DNA of 44,873 nucleotides, taken from positions 1 through 44,873 of the forward strand of contig JANXOV010000039.1 in the NCBI GenBank assembly GCA_025357635.1, given 5' to 3'. The stretch comes from Pseudomonadota bacterium. Its GTDB lineage: Bacteria; Pseudomonadota; Gammaproteobacteria; Steroidobacterales; Steroidobacteraceae. Under the pieces are notes generated by a model. The model was not told the origin of the DNA. It saw only the letters and a program-made list of their open reading frames with translations, and searched no databases. Shown here one piece after another: positions 33,164 to 39,396 of the stretch; the first letter of the stretch is position 1; every line of letters starts with the position of its first letter. The position numbers and the translations under genes were made by a program.

Positions 33164-33988
33164 TTAATTCCAGAGCGCGACGGCGGCGCCGGCCGCGATC
33201 AATGCGATGCCTGCGGCAACGGCGGTGCGTTGGCCGAACGGCGCCAGTTTTTCCAGCAGGACGAACAGCGTCAGCGCCGCGATGCACAGCAGATTCATGA
33301 CGCCGCCCGCGAACAGCAGCAGCATCAGCGCCCAGCAGCATCCCAGGCAATGAACACCATGCAGCGCGCCCATGCGCGCGGCGCCGGCGACTCCGGGTCG
33401 CCAGTGATTGCTGATGAAGAAAGCCGGCGCGCGGCAATGATGCAGACAGCGGCGCTTGAGCGGCGTGAGCTGATACACACCGGCGATGACGAGTATTGAC
33501 GCCGACAGCCAGCGGTGCCGCAGTTCCATCATGGGCGACAGCCACAGCAGCGTGCTCAGGCTGCGTTGCAACGCCGTTGCGGCCAGACTGAACGCCGCCC
33601 AACACAGAAGGTAGCCGCACAAAAATGCGTACACGCGCGCAGCCGGGGCTGCGCCACCGTCATCCTTGCGCACGACGCGCGCATACAGCAGCAGGGTGGG
33701 CGCCGCCGATGGCAGCATCATGCCCACCATCATCACGAGCCACATCGCAAACAGCAGCGCAAGATGTGCAGCGTCCCACTGTGCGCGCATCATCCACACC
33801 GATGCACCGGTCATTGTCCCGTACATGTCACGGCTCATGGGAACGATCCACGCCCAGCACAGCGCGCAGATGCCGGCGAGTGCGAGACCGACGATCCAGG
33901 AATCGCGGACCAGCAGCCGTTCGGCCAGGCTGCGCTCGTCAGCGGACGACGCCGTGGGTGCTCCAGTGAATGGCCGCCAGATGCGCAT
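33164..33988 (-). CDS. DUF2182 integral membrane protein
   Basis: A 274-aa membrane protein with about six or seven helices and the DUF2182 hallmarks MWLVMMVGMMLPSAAPTLLL, LTPLKRRCLHHCRAP and MGALHGVHCLGCCWALMLLL. The last two hold Cys and His clusters suited to metal binding. DUF2182 is annotated as a predicted metal-binding membrane protein of unknown function. The start overlaps the end of the DUF1326 gene by 50 bases and there is no later good start, so the overlap seems real. The two families often occur together. It converges on the zinc-ribbon gene. Confidence 0.88.
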   Translation of the reverse strand: MRIWRPFTGAPTASSADERSLAERLLVRDSWIVGLALAGICALCWAWIVPMSRDMYGTMTGASVWMMRAQWDAAHLALLFAMWLVMMVGMMLPSAAPTLLLYARVVRKDDGGAAPAARVYAFLCGYLLCWAAFSLAATALQRSLSTLLWLSPMMELRHRWLSASILVIAGVYQLTPLKRRCLHHCRAPAFFISNHWRPGVAGAARMGALHGVHCLGCCWALMLLLFAGGVMNLLCIAALTLFVLLEKLAPFGQRTAVAAGIALIAAGAAVALWN

Positions 33989-34574
33989 GCGTGTCGTGGA
34001 AATCCAGATCGATCGCTCCGCTGCACCTGGCCGTGCCGCTGGTCATCTCGGCGTCTTGAAACTCGAAACCGCTCGGCAGCGTCAGGCGTGGACGATGCGC
34101 CGCACCGGTCACCGGATTGGTGATGGGCCGGGAGGATGCCTCGAGAAAATCAGGGATGCGCAGCGACGCGGTGCCCGCGGCTTTGTCGATCCGCAGATCG
34201 ATGGGCCGTACCAGCGTCGGCAGCACCTGAGTGACAGTGGTTGAAAACACCTGCCAGATCAGCGCGCCGACATCGGTCTCGCGGCCGTGTGAAATCGCTT
34301 CGATGGCGGCCCGCTGCTTCTCGTCGGCGCGCGAATCCACGACGGTTTGGAACGTGCCATTGCCCAGATGCACGGCCTTGGGCCACGCGGCGAATATGCC
34401 CCATCGCAGCCCGTCGAGTTTGAGGTCGCCGAAGTGGCCGCGATCGATCTGAACGAAACACAGTGCGCGGCAATCCCCGTGACTGGGAAGGGAATTGAAC
34501 TGGCAGGGACAGCCCCAGTTGCAATTGCAGTTGTTGTACTCGACGCCCTGCATGGACCATTCTACGTGCGCCAT
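33939..34574 (-). CDS. DUF1326 domain protein
   Basis: A 211-aa protein without a signal peptide. The N-terminal DUF1326 signature is a cysteine cluster, YNNCNCNWGCPCQFNSLPSHG, with CRALCFV shortly after, suggesting a metal site made of up to six Cys. Later conserved parts include GLRWGIFAAWPKAVHLGNGT and ALIWQVFSTT. The function of the family is unknown. It is co-transcribed with and overlaps the DUF2182 membrane gene, so the pair probably works as a soluble metal-binding partner and a membrane partner (inference). Confidence 0.87.
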   Translation of the reverse strand: MAHVEWSMQGVEYNNCNCNWGCPCQFNSLPSHGDCRALCFVQIDRGHFGDLKLDGLRWGIFAAWPKAVHLGNGTFQTVVDSRADEKQRAAIEAISHGRETDVGALIWQVFSTTVTQVLPTLVRPIDLRIDKAAGTASLRIPDFLEASSRPITNPVTGAAHRPRLTLPSGFEFQDAEMTSGTARCSGAIDLDFHDTHAHLAAIHWSTHGVVR

Positions 34575-35864: not shown

Positions 35865-36284
35865 CTACTTCAACCCGGGTTTCTCCATATCGCGCAGATT
35901 GGTGTTGAATACCGTGCCGGTCTTGACCTGCGTGGCCTTCACCAGCGCACCCCCATGCTTGCCGTTGCGCAGGGGATTAAGTTCAATGATGACCTCATCA
36001 CCCGCCGCAAACGCGCGCCGCGTCCAACCCGTGCGCGTCAGGTTGCCGGGGCTCGTCAACTCCAGCGACCAGGTACCCGCCGTCTCGCCCGCCGCTGCCG
36101 GCACATCGACCCACAGCACCACATGCGGATTGGTCCATTGGAATTCCTTGACGGTGCCGTGAATGGAGATCTGCTTGCTGAACTCGAACATGGCGAAGGA
36201 ATGGTGGGCGGCGGCCAGACCCGTCAAGCCGGCGCATGCCAGCACGGCGGCAAGCGCCCTGGATCGAAGAACTTGAATCGTCAT
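35865..36284 (-). CDS. DUF6152 family secreted protein
   Basis: A 139-aa protein. Signal peptide of about 26 residues (AAVLACAGLTGLAAA) followed directly by HHSFAMFEFSKQI, the hallmark of DUF6152: two His at the mature N-terminus, then a small beta domain (GTVKEFQWTNPHVVLWVDVP, FAAGDEVIIELNPLRNGKHG, ending LRDMEKPG). An N-terminal His pair would suit copper or heme binding, though this is inference. It is the last of five minus-strand genes. 190 bp without a recognisable gene separate it from lpxD. Confidence 0.85.
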   Translation of the reverse strand: MTIQVLRSRALAAVLACAGLTGLAAAHHSFAMFEFSKQISIHGTVKEFQWTNPHVVLWVDVPAAAGETAGTWSLELTSPGNLTRTGWTRRAFAAGDEVIIELNPLRNGKHGGALVKATQVKTGTVFNTNLRDMEKPGLK

Positions 36285-36302
36285 TGCATTTCTCCGCTCA
36301 AA

Positions 36303-37163
36303 CTACTTCGGCGGCGCCGATTCGATCGGCACCGGATTTCCATCCGCCTGCGGCACCGGAACGAACACGGCATTGCCGTTCTTGTCCACCCGCTCGGCAA
36401 AACTGCCCTGCAGGCACACGCCTTCGACGATGTCATATTTGCGCGCACGCTGGCGAAAGTAAATGCGCGTGGTCTTCCATGGGCGGGTGAGGATGCGCGG
36501 CGCGATGATTTCCAGGTCATCGTACAAGGTTTCCGAATCGGCCAGGTGAATGCGCTCGATCACGTGCAGATCGCCGTTGTTGGGCATGCCGACCGCTTCG
36601 CTGACTGCGAGGAAGGTCTGCGGCAGCACCCCGACGGTGTCGACCACCAGCGTCTCGCCGTCCCAGCGCCCGATGGAATGCCCGTGAAACGTGGGGTCCG
36701 GATCGACCGGATGGCCACGGCCATCGGTGTAGATGCGGCGCAGCCGGTTGCCATCGGATTCACCGAGCAGCGTCACGCGCCCCGGCGTGAACAGGATCTC
36801 CATCGCGTTGTGCGTGATCAGCATCCAGCTGGGCATGGCCTCGGGCAGGCAGTCGATGAACAGGCCGCGCGGATTGCCGGCCGCCTCGTCGGCTGCCATT
36901 GTCGCCACCTGCTTCGCGGCCTGCGGATTCCAAGGCATCGGATCCGCCTTGATCCGGCGATTCTGATCGCTGATCTTTGGCGTCCACACGCCGCTCCAAT
37001 CGGGGAGTTTCGCAAGAGCCGCCCAATCCTGCGCCGTGGGCGCCGGGTTGAGCACGGTCTCGGCGGCGCTCGCGCAGTTGCCGCACAAGGCCAAGACCGC
37101 GATGGCGCAACCTGTACGCCGGCGCCAGCGCGCTCGGGCATCGAACGATGAATGATTCAACAT
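36303..37163 (-). CDS. Secreted protein of unknown function, associated with DUF6152/DUF6644
   Basis: A 286-aa protein with a signal peptide (about 1-34: RTGCAIAVLALCGNCASAA). The mature part starts WSGVWTPKI-like text (LPDWSGVWTPKISDQNRRIK) and has DCLPEAMPSWML, IYTDGRGHPVDPDPTFHGHS, GRWDGETLVVDTVG and YDIVEGVCLQGSF. This set of blocks recurs in proteins found next to DUF6152 and DUF6644 genes in environmental proteobacteria. No enzymatic motif is evident; the HGHS and repeated Trp-Asp-Gly suggest a beta-rich ligand or metal protein. It lies 6 bp after one membrane gene and 18 bp before DUF6152 in transcription order. Confidence 0.8.
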   Translation of the reverse strand: MLNHSSFDARARWRRRTGCAIAVLALCGNCASAAETVLNPAPTAQDWAALAKLPDWSGVWTPKISDQNRRIKADPMPWNPQAAKQVATMAADEAAGNPRGLFIDCLPEAMPSWMLITHNAMEILFTPGRVTLLGESDGNRLRRIYTDGRGHPVDPDPTFHGHSIGRWDGETLVVDTVGVLPQTFLAVSEAVGMPNNGDLHVIERIHLADSETLYDDLEIIAPRILTRPWKTTRIYFRQRARKYDIVEGVCLQGSFAERVDKNGNAVFVPVPQADGNPVPIESAPPK

Positions 37164-37169
37164 GGACTA

Positions 37170-37670
37170 TCAGCCTCCTATCATCGTAAATCCGATCCAG
37201 CGTCCGCAGGCGATGACCCCGATCCACAGCAGCAAGGACACCACGCCGACGACACGGTCAGAGACGGGCACGGCGCGACCGCTGGAGTCGCGATTGGTGT
37301 TGGGGTTCAGGAGCAGATGAAAGATCGCCATGTTAATGCCGGCCATCGCGATCAGCACCATCTTGCGGAAGAAAAAGTCGTTGTGCGCATATTTGGGCGC
37401 ATTGGAGGCGAACAGCAGCGCACCGCTCACCACTGCCGCGGCAAATGCAACCCAGGTGACCGGCAGCACCGAGCGCGCCACCTGATCGACGCTGCGCTCG
37501 CGCCAGGCGAGGCCGATCAGACGCATGTCCATGATGGAAATGCTGCCGAACACCAGCGTGATGGCCAGCACATGCACGCCCTCAACGAACGGGAACAGCG
37601 TTTCGTTTTCACGCAGCGTGACGGCCAGCGCCGTCGCCTGCAACCACTCCAACTGCGGATCGAAAATCAT
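37170..37670 (-). CDS. DUF6644-like small membrane protein (2)
   Basis: A 166-aa inner-membrane protein with four helices: FVEGVHVLAITLVFGSISIM, VTWVAFAAAVVSGALLF, VLIAMAGINMAIFHLL and VVGVVSLLLWIGVIACGRW. The His in helix 1 (EGVHVLA) and the His in IFHLL could hold heme b. It resembles the preceding gene product in layout and in the closing LLLWIGVIACGRWIGF (LLLWVGIVFAGRWIAY there), so the two are tandem paralogues. Start is ATG 37668-37670, overlapping the preceding stop as ATGA. Confidence 0.8.
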   Translation of the reverse strand: MIFDPQLEWLQATALAVTLRENETLFPFVEGVHVLAITLVFGSISIMDMRLIGLAWRERSVDQVARSVLPVTWVAFAAAVVSGALLFASNAPKYAHNDFFFRKMVLIAMAGINMAIFHLLLNPNTNRDSSGRAVPVSDRVVGVVSLLLWIGVIACGRWIGFTMIGG

Positions 37671-38158
37671 GCGACGCGAACGTACGCGATCCAGCGGCCC
37701 GCAAACACGATGCCGACCCAGAGCAGCAGCGACAGCAGCGCAAAGCCGGTGCGCCACAGCCTGGCCGAGGAGGCCCATCGATTCGTGTCGATGCGCCGCT
37801 GCACGGCGAACGTAAGCGCAACGATGCTCAGCAGCATGATCATTTTGAGCTGGAAGGCGCTGTTCTGAAGCGACCGCGCCGGTTCAGCCGAGATCATCAG
37901 CAGGCCCGTCACCAGCAGCACCGGCAGCGTCCACCACACCACCGGCAGGAACCGTGCCGCGATGCGCATGACGGGCTGATCCTGGCAGGCGAGTTCCAGC
38001 AGCCGCAGATTCAGCATGAGCACCGCCGACAGCAGCAGACCGATCGCCAGGATATGCAATGTCTGAACCGCCGGGACGATCCACTCGATGCTCTGCAAGG
38101 TATGGCTCAGCGGCGTGGATTCCAGCCAGGCGCAAAATGGGTCGAGCCAGGCCTGCAT
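37667..38158 (-). CDS. DUF6644 family small membrane protein (1)
   Basis: A 163-aa inner-membrane protein. Four helices: IVPAVQTLHILAIGLLLSAV, WWTLPVLLVTGLLMIS, KMIMLLSIVALTFAVQ and LLSLLLWVGIVFAGRWIAYV. The LHILA of helix 1 matches VHVLA in its tandem paralogue. The start ATG 38156-38158 lies 2 bp after the stop of the FMN dehydrogenase, so translation is probably coupled. The position directly after an exported dehydrogenase suggests a membrane anchor or quinone-side partner (inference). Confidence 0.82.
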   Translation of the reverse strand: MQAWLDPFCAWLESTPLSHTLQSIEWIVPAVQTLHILAIGLLLSAVLMLNLRLLELACQDQPVMRIAARFLPVVWWTLPVLLVTGLLMISAEPARSLQNSAFQLKMIMLLSIVALTFAVQRRIDTNRWASSARLWRTGFALLSLLLWVGIVFAGRWIAYVRVA

Positions 38159-38160
38159 GA

Positions 38161-39396
38161 TCAATACTTCGCCCAGACGACGGCGCCGTTCGTGATCGCC
38201 GCCAGCGAGGGCGTACCGGCCTGGCGCATGATGATCTTCAGCTCGCGATCCAGGATGTCGATGACCGCCGCCACGCCCTGTTCGCCGAACGCCGCCAGTC
38301 CCCAGCCTTGCGGACGGCCCAGACCGACGCCGGTTGCACCCAGCGCCAGCGCCTTGAACACGTCGGTGCCGCGGCGGATGCCGCCGTCGATGAACACCGG
38401 GGCTTTGCCGCCGACGGCGGCCACGACTTCGGGCAGGCATTCGATGGTAGAGCGCAGCGTCTCTTCGGCGCGGCCGCCGTGATTGGAAACCACCACGCCA
38501 TCGGCGCCGTGTTCAAGCGACATCGCGGCATCCTCGCCGGTGACGATGCCCTTGACGATCAGCTTGACCGAAACGATGTCGCGCAGCCGCCGCAGGTAAT
38601 CCCAGGAGATCGCCGTGGGCGCGTGTTCCTTGACGCGCGATACGTCGATGCCCGCATACAGAGGCGCTTTACGCACCTGATCATGCGTATTGTTGATGTG
38701 GCATTGCGTGCAGTCGCGGGTGTCGCGCTGCATCGCCCGCGACAACGTCTCGGTATTGCGGCCGGGCATGACGTCGACGGTGAGCGCAATGGCGGTGCAG
38801 CCGGCCTGTTGCGCCCGTTTCACCAAGGCCTGTGTCACGCTCCAGTCATCGGTGGCGTACAGCTGCTGCCACAGCGGCGCCTGCCGCGCCGCCGCGATAT
38901 CCTCCACCGCGAAGGAGGCGAAGCTGGAGGCCATCAGCTGCACGTTACGGGATGCCGCCGCCCTTGCGACGGCCACTTCGCCTTCCGGATGAAAAGCGCG
39001 CATGCCCGACACCGCCGACATATACAGGGGGGATTGCCAGTGCCGGCCGAAAACCTCACGGCTCGTATCGAGCTTGCTCACATCGACAAATCGGTGTGAG
39101 CGGATCTGCAGGCGCGAATACGCCTCGTGGTTGAGCACGACGGTGCGGTCGTCGTCGATGCCGGTGGCAAGGTAGCCGAAATGCGCCGGCGGCAGTTTGG
39201 CGCGCGCCAGCGCCTCAAAATCGGCGACGTTGAGCACCTGGTCGGCGCGCAGGATGCCGAGTGCATCGGCCGGATTTGCAAGCGCTTGCGCCAGACTGCC
39301 GGCAGGCAGCACCGCCAGCGCGGGGAAGCAGGCCAACGCGCGCAGCACCCGTCGGCGGGCGTCGGAAACAATATCGGCATCGAGCATCGAACGCAT
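38161..39396 (-). CDS. Exported FMN-dependent alpha-hydroxy-acid dehydrogenase with a CxxCH motif
   Basis: A 411-aa member of the lactate/glycolate/mandelate oxidoreductase family. Residues 14-40 look like a Tat signal (ARRRVLRALACFPALAV). The FMN barrel follows: FGYLATGIDDDRT (Tyr 75), LYMSAVSGMRAFHPEGE, LWQQLYATDDW, catalytic Lys 292 in LIVKGIVTG, His 306 and Arg 309 in VVSNHGGR, and FIDGGIRRGTDVFKAL. Between strands, where family members have loop 4, an insert carries CTQCH (Cys 229, Cys 232, His 233; codons 38698-38712), a c-type heme motif. This suggests intramolecular electron transfer from FMN to heme, an arrangement different from flavocytochrome b2, whose heme b domain is N-terminal. 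It heads the five-gene operon. Heme attachment is not proven; Tat export and Ccm heme attachment are an unusual combination. Confidence 0.88.
   Translation of the reverse strand: MRSMLDADIVSDARRRVLRALACFPALAVLPAGSLAQALANPADALGILRADQVLNVADFEALARAKLPPAHFGYLATGIDDDRTVVLNHEAYSRLQIRSHRFVDVSKLDTSREVFGRHWQSPLYMSAVSGMRAFHPEGEVAVARAAASRNVQLMASSFASFAVEDIAAARQAPLWQQLYATDDWSVTQALVKRAQQAGCTAIALTVDVMPGRNTETLSRAMQRDTRDCTQCHINNTHDQVRKAPLYAGIDVSRVKEHAPTAISWDYLRRLRDIVSVKLIVKGIVTGEDAAMSLEHGADGVVVSNHGGRAEETLRSTIECLPEVVAAVGGKAPVFIDGGIRRGTDVFKALALGATGVGLGRPQGWGLAAFGEQGVAAVIDILDRELKIIMRQAGTPSLAAITNGAVVWAKY

Follow-up and report, generated by a model that had tools for sequence, protein, structure and literature searches.

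A predicted Tat-exported FMN dehydrogenase with a CxxCH motif in loop 4 heads a recurring DUF6644-SEC-DUF6152 gene module in a single Steroidobacteraceae genome

Several electron acceptors are described for the flavin mononucleotide (FMN)-dependent alpha-hydroxy-acid oxidase and dehydrogenase family. The available part of one account lists oxygen, cytochrome c reached through a b5-like domain, and quinone, the last in conjunction with a longer loop 4 (PMC8491902). In Aerococcus lactate oxidase this same loop, part of which is disordered, closes over the active site, according to the available part of a second account (PMC4908395). The stretch of DNA analysed here, hereafter the window (44,873 nucleotides; contig JANXOV010000039.1 of assembly GCA_025357635.1, family Steroidobacteraceae, order Steroidobacterales), appears to encode a different variant. 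The first of five closely spaced genes specifies a dehydrogenase (DH) which, judged from its sequence, is exported by the twin-arginine translocation (Tat) pathway and carries a CxxCH motif inside loop 4, an arrangement that is not among the variants named in the available part of PMC8491902. DH is followed by two DUF6644 membrane proteins (TM1 and TM2), a secreted protein (SEC) and a DUF6152 protein. The quartet TM1-TM2-SEC-DUF6152 is a recurring, conserved module; the five-gene set that includes DH occurs in the window only, among the genomes seen. In the window, then, DH and the module stand together, whereas in all other loci examined they lie apart.

DH matches FMN_dh (PF01070) in Pfam at E 4.2e-105, scoring 352 bits against a cut-off of 24.9; its nearest solved relatives are the L-lactate and glycolate oxidases, and by alignment it has the same barrel. 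From 79 open reading frame (ORF) hits, an alignment of 46 rows was retained (45 homologs plus the window protein) after duplicates and ORFs shorter than 330 residues were dropped. CxxCH is kept in 42 of the 45 homologs, or 43 of all 46 rows, and the three rows that lack it are missing that piece of the loop. Residues Y180, D208, K282, H306 and R309 are kept in all 43 rows with the motif and Y75 in 40 of them; we take these Tyr, Asp, Lys, His and Arg residues to have the catalytic roles familiar from the FMN dehydrogenase family. Alignment to lactate oxidase places CxxCH in loop 4, the segment from beta4 to alpha4, and the loop around it varies in both length and sequence while the motif itself stays constant. 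The motif is also present in all five DH matches found among 397 other genomes of the phylum, and in a DH on a plasmid record of Methylobacterium bullatum, where a cytochrome c gene lies upstream. At the hydropathy threshold used, DH has no hydrophobic stretch beyond its N-terminus that might correspond to a membrane-binding loop 4 like that of (S)-mandelate dehydrogenase. The source genome holds three cytochrome c assembly-family matches. A search of the available literature returned no paper on an FMN-dependent dehydrogenase with CxxCH, nor one combining Tat and c-type terms. On these features we class DH as a novel variant within an established family.

The downstream quartet recurs independently of DH. 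A profile search found DUF6644 in 53 of 246 genomes of the order, and 40 loci chosen by hand from its best rows served as a first set. Their 38 runs of called DUF6644 genes comprise 35 tandem pairs, two single genes and one run of four. Twenty-six of these 38 runs touch SEC or DUF6152, compared with a mean of 26% and at most 40% under label shuffling, and DUF6152 touches SEC in 23 of 29 instances (shuffle mean 6.1, at most 13). Close SEC orthologs were recovered from 18 other genomes among 216 searched in the family. Ten of the 18 loci reproduce the TM-TM-SEC-DUF6152 order exactly; in one a single TM gene was called, and seven lack TM genes, three of the seven being cut by contig ends (L211, L214 and L208). 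A second group of close SEC orthologs (L208-L210, L212 and L213) consists of SEC-DUF6152 without DUF6644, and in L212 this pair stands behind an RlmL-like methyltransferase gene and an exonuclease-domain gene. Module genes are found on sphingomonad plasmids as well: that of Sphingobium sp. TomTYG65 carries a TonB receptor, a DUF6644 pair and the series DUF6152-SEC-DUF6152-SEC; two Novosphingobium plasmid loci have DUF6644 pairs with DUF6152 and SEC; and a Croceibacterium plasmid locus reads DUF6152-DUF6152-SEC-TonB receptor, with no DUF6644 pair. The TomTYG65 module adjoins sulfonate and monooxygenase genes, and most of the genes in this stretch are unnamed in the record. When the proteins neighbouring the module were scanned for a common catabolic partner in two sets of 41 and 59 proteins, they proved diverse, with no family represented in more than four.

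DH is absent from all 40 DUF6644 loci outside the window and from all 18 loci with a close SEC ortholog. Conversely, 92 of the 296 genomes searched in the order hold a relative of DH at E ≤1e-60, and none of 39 distinct CxxCH-DH genes elsewhere (40 gene calls, one of them a duplicate) has a module gene as its immediate neighbour or a DUF6644 gene in its stretch. SEC or DUF6152 does lie about 2.5-7.2 kb away in seven of the 40 CxxCH-DH stretches, mostly in genomes rich in such genes. The DH genes of L105 and L106, whose products are up to 70% identical to the window enzyme, are solitary, standing between mutS and cinA-recA-recX. The one other genome of the genus that was searched, 82% complete, yielded neither DH nor a close SEC. 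Genes in the fetched loci were called by our own codon-usage script, which missed the TM genes of L040 and L049 (visible as raw ORFs), probably one TM gene in L200, and the DH genes of L117, L126, L130 and L146.

These counts bear directly on the original prediction, which had read the close spacing of the five genes as a sign that they act together, and had proposed a membrane-anchored complex that oxidizes a hydroxy acid in the periplasm and passes electrons to quinone. The five closely spaced genes, one pair of them overlapping, are real, but close spacing does not here imply a functional unit kept across genomes, the five-gene set being seen in the window alone. As a conserved complex the five genes were rejected. 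The finding that the original prediction named as its refutation, membrane and secreted genes lying mostly apart from the dehydrogenase in other genomes, is what the counts show: DH accompanies the module in 0/40 DUF6644 loci and 0/18 SEC loci, and the module accompanies DH in 0/39 cases. A conserved five-subunit dehydrogenase of this kind is thus quite improbable: its tight gene spacing is offset by the lack of a second genome with the set among the loci examined and by the genome of the same genus that has neither DH nor a close SEC. Conceivably, an arrangement seen once, in a genome of 182 contigs, could reflect an artefact of assembly at the DH-TM1 junction; coherent reading frames, the 2-bp spacing and a stated contamination of 0.42% make this very unlikely. 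A more serious contender holds that DH is a chance neighbour on the module's transcript, and that the module binds small molecules, perhaps lipophilic ones, and imports or senses them. In this scheme SEC, a barrel, would bind the ligand in partnership with DUF6152, and the DUF6644 pair would be their counterpart in the membrane. The solitary setting of DH elsewhere, with none of 39 genes beside module parts, favours this view, as do the TonB receptors near module loci. We regard it as possible, though short of probable, and place it level with the redox reading to which the gene before TM1 points.

In seven of the ten close quartets, TM1 is directly preceded, at a distance of -3 to 66 bp, by a gene for an exported CxxCH protein of 176-197 residues. 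These slot-1 proteins end in CEACH, with C162, C165 and H166 invariant in 14 rows, and at profile level they match solved cytochromes c' with an E of 3.9e-6. Taken singly, they fail the PF01322 cut-off: three of five and one of three match below it, and the others do not match. Eight of the 38 first-set DUF6644 clusters have a cytochrome-like relative next to them, and the association extends to further families of the order. Outside the window, CxxCH occurs in 11 of 37 close co-directional flanks, compared with 43 of 1185 non-core genes, for a Fisher p of 1.6e-8, a value that is too small because the loci are related by descent, seven of them within one family. DUF6644 is present in 28 of the 31 genomes with the slot cytochrome, compared with 53 of all 246, a contrast likewise uncorrected for kinship that assumes both searches, with their differing E-value limits, to have drawn on the same 246 genomes. 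The cytochrome profile was built from the 14 genes in its own hit list, and that list is therefore no independent test. Occupancy of the slot by a cytochrome-like gene elsewhere hints that the module handles electrons. It also weighs against DH as a chance neighbour, since in close relatives class II cytochrome-like genes occupy the same slot, and the window DH has CxxCH too: one CxxCH protein seems to replace another. We read this to mean that over some of its range the module operates together with a CxxCH protein, and that in the window the enzyme supplies this itself.

Of the two level explanations we tentatively favour a hybrid operon, a periplasmic redox module feeding the membrane with DH in its first slot. 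DH would oxidize a 2-hydroxy acid at FMN in the periplasm. Electrons would leave it through heme c on the loop-4 CxxCH, standing in for the cytochrome, to be accepted in the membrane and passed on by the DUF6644 pair, whose invariant His, Lys and Arg and HemJ/CopD-like character would suit that role. SEC and DUF6152 may serve as periplasmic ligand- or metal-binding partners. The heme on CxxCH, the electron path, its acceptor, the substrate and the functional nature of the swap are what we infer from these patterns. The fuller version, a new type of flavocytochrome in which heme c sits on the DH loop, the class II cytochrome is replaced, DUF6152 holds metal at a His-His site and DUF6644 accepts the electrons, seems rather unlikely.

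Besides relatedness by descent, a number of observations weigh against this hybrid. DH and the module are together in one genome only. Tat exports folded proteins, whereas heme c normally becomes attached to Sec substrates in the unfolded state; because of this conflict, heme on the DH motif can be put forward only as a hypothesis. The conflict would ease if the loop were mobile and remained accessible after the enzyme had folded. In the first set, 28 of 38 DUF6644 clusters lack a CxxCH gene as immediate neighbour, and two of the ten that are so flanked have a large, unrelated CxxCH protein. No CxxCH gene was found in four sphingomonad plasmid stretches. About 40 of 48 cytochrome rows were not seen beside DUF6644, and at least eight, and few more, lie within about 3.3 kb of it, in a comparison from which the DUF6644 places of three genomes are missing. 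The flanks of DH elsewhere carry CxxCH in 1 of 79 instances. Finally, the window genome has a class II cytochrome-like domain of its own, with CEQCH, at the C-terminus of an Amidohydro_3 frame (5223-7325 of L215, minus strand); it is apparently fused to an amidohydrolase, not to a redox enzyme.

The DUF6644 proteins would be the membrane end of the proposed path. TM1 and TM2 match PF20349 in Pfam at E 1.7e-12 (48.2 bits) and E 2.2e-15 (57.6 bits), respectively, against a cut-off of 27, and are 29% identical to each other. Hydropathy analysis gives four hydrophobic stretches in TM1 and four in TM2, the second of the latter being split into two overlapping windows. H33, G83, K103 and R157 (TM2 numbering) are invariant in 45 aligned rows. 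A profile comparison with UPF0093, which we take to be HemJ, gave an hhalign probability of 30.4 (E 5.4e-4), a weak likeness in which the helix-1 His and the Lys align; its UPF0093 side consisted of six sequences, two of them checked as UPF0093. Comparison with CopD was weaker still (probability 0.6, E 0.096).

This distant resemblance, with its aligned His and Lys, also lends itself to another explanation, namely that the module handles copper, with DUF6152 as a periplasmic carrier and DUF6644 as a CopD-like membrane protein, in the manner of CopC-CopD without homology to it. The features of DUF6152 that would suit such a carrier lie at its N-terminus and in one internal motif. The protein matches PF19649 in Pfam (E 2.8e-29, 101.5 bits against a cut-off of 27), and H27, H28, N52, P53 and H54 are invariant in all 28 aligned rows. 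Ala directly precedes the His pair in 61 of 67 cases, mostly with Ala or Val at -3, as expected at a signal-peptidase cut, so that mature DUF6152 is predicted to begin His-His. This start, together with the invariant NPH, looks like a candidate metal site. The DUF6152 model, with a predicted local distance difference test score (pLDDT) of 86.7, is a five-stranded oligonucleotide/oligosaccharide-binding (OB) fold, whose best Z is 8.7 to PriB (root-mean-square deviation, rmsd, 2.6; 82 aligned) and whose best Foldseek E is 2.4e-3. Sharing the OB fold with PriB is no indication that DUF6152, an exported protein, binds DNA. CusF-like OB proteins, CusF and SilF among them, rank 29, 31 and 46 for this model at E 0.02-0.03, behind many DNA-binding OB folds; they are not among the 50 matches listed in a second fold comparison. 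CopC is not among the fold matches listed for DUF6152 either, which excludes nothing.

DUF6152 is also greatly expanded: each of four genomes (2.6-4.6 Mb, one family) has at least 124 scored matches, and two further genomes have 98 and 92. The expansion is extreme for a small secreted protein, and the copies are often arranged with SEC copies. More than 100 copies per genome ill suit a copper carrier, which, along with the feeble CopD comparison and the low rank of CusF, renders the copper explanation improbable despite the AxA|HH junction, the NPH motif and, 1.9 kb downstream, a gene for a PpoB2 'copper chaperone'. The same numbers suit ligand diversity better than a single redox task, and in this respect they favour the ligand-binding module with DH as its chance neighbour.

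SEC speaks in the same direction. It has no Pfam or NCBIfam family match, and its alignment shows C105 nearly invariant and C250 invariant. Its model (pLDDT 80.2) is a barrel resembling fatty-acid and retinoid binders with middling scores: seven Foldseek matches at E ≤0.001, the best at 2.3e-4, and a best Z of 8.4 (rmsd 3.3, 120 aligned). SEC is accordingly predicted to be a calycin/fatty-acid-binding-protein (FABP)-like barrel of the lipid-binding type; the middling scores of the fold matches count against the ligand-binding view. Searches of solved structures gave no convincing sequence relatives of DUF6152, SEC or DUF6644, the best E of 0.0055 being chance-like.

The components named in the original prediction, as distinct from the dedicated complex built upon them, have stood up well. 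The exported FMN/CxxCH enzyme is supported by the family match, the checked catalytic residues and the motif in 43/46 aligned rows; the two paralogous four-helix proteins share an invariant helix-1 His and the common LLLW...GRWI end; SEC is a secreted protein without a family, with one N-terminal hydrophobic stretch; and the DUF6152 protein has its N-terminal His pair. That the partners of the dehydrogenase lack known function holds at the level of names, a search of the available literature having found no paper naming DUF6152, DUF6644, DUF2182 or DUF1326.

All five genes lie on the minus strand (Table 1), with successive intergenic gaps of +2, -4, +6 and +18 bp, and hydropathy analysis shows a single N-terminal hydrophobic stretch in each of DH, SEC and DUF6152. 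A GFA-family gene on the same strand ends 83 bp upstream of DH, and a DUF3106 gene is also upstream. Downstream on the same strand, after 191 bp, come an LpxD-like gene, then a DUF1326 gene, then the PpoB2 gene, the last two of which overlap (window 33164-34574). Since this same-strand run extends both upstream and downstream, the operon may be longer than five genes.

Table 1. Coordinates of the five genes and of the conserved motifs within them
Feature	Position in window	Strand	Length	Assignment	Basis or conservation
DH	38161..39396	minus	411 aa	Predicted Tat-exported FMN-dependent alpha-hydroxy-acid dehydrogenase with CxxCH in loop 4	FMN_dh match
DH N-terminal signal region, twin arginine R14 R15	39277..39396	minus			RR in 40/43 CxxCH rows; R14, R15 ≥95%
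DH CxxCH (CTQCH), residues 229-233	38698..38712	minus			Invariant in 43/43 CxxCH-group rows
TM1	37667..38158	minus	163 aa	DUF6644 four-helix membrane protein, first of pair	PF20349 and hydropathy
TM2	37170..37670	minus	166 aa	DUF6644 four-helix membrane protein, second of pair	PF20349 and alignment
SEC	36303..37163	minus	286 aa	Secreted, predicted calycin/FABP-like beta-barrel	Alignment, model and fold search
DUF6152	35865..36284	minus	139 aa	Secreted, predicted OB fold	PF19649, model and fold search
DUF6152 H27-H28	36201..36206	minus		At expected signal-peptidase cut	HH in 67/72 distinct gene calls
DUF6152 NPH motif, residues 52-54	36123..36131	minus			Invariant in 28/28 rows; NPH in 67/72 gene calls

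If the CxxCH of DH binds heme, a well-studied flavoenzyme family would have a third means of connecting its flavin to a heme, and a loop-borne heme c in a Tat-exported protein would become a testable problem. Apart from DH, the association of the uncharacterized DUF6644, DUF6152 and SEC in a single module, seen in two Pseudomonadota classes and accompanied in many genomes of the order by a cytochrome-like gene, offers a first concrete handle on the function of these families.

Comparison with known systems places DH closest to the FMN alpha-hydroxy-acid oxidases and dehydrogenases (lactate oxidase, glycolate oxidase and (S)-mandelate dehydrogenase), with which it shares PF01070, the catalytic residues and the barrel, and from which it differs in a predicted Tat signal and an invariant CxxCH inside loop 4. 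Like flavocytochrome b2 (L-lactate:cytochrome c), DH would couple the same FMN chemistry to heme; in flavocytochrome b2, however, the heme resides in an N-terminal cytochrome b5 domain, whereas the candidate in DH is a c-type site in loop 4. The flavocytochrome b2 architecture itself was considered for DH and rejected, since Pfam matches as weak as E 1 include no cytochrome b5-like domain. In relatives, the slot-1 proteins recall the class II cytochromes c (c' and c-556) in their match to solved c' and their C-terminal CxxCH, but differ in scoring below the PF01322 cut-off where they match it at all, and the window operon has none. The window's DUF6152 protein, over the cut-off of PF19649, shows no difference from that family, which is itself uncharacterized. 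DUF6644, finally, is distantly like UPF0093/HemJ and CopD: it has four helices, and its helix-1 His and its Lys align with those of UPF0093, but it occurs nearly always in tandem pairs and the profile likeness is weak.

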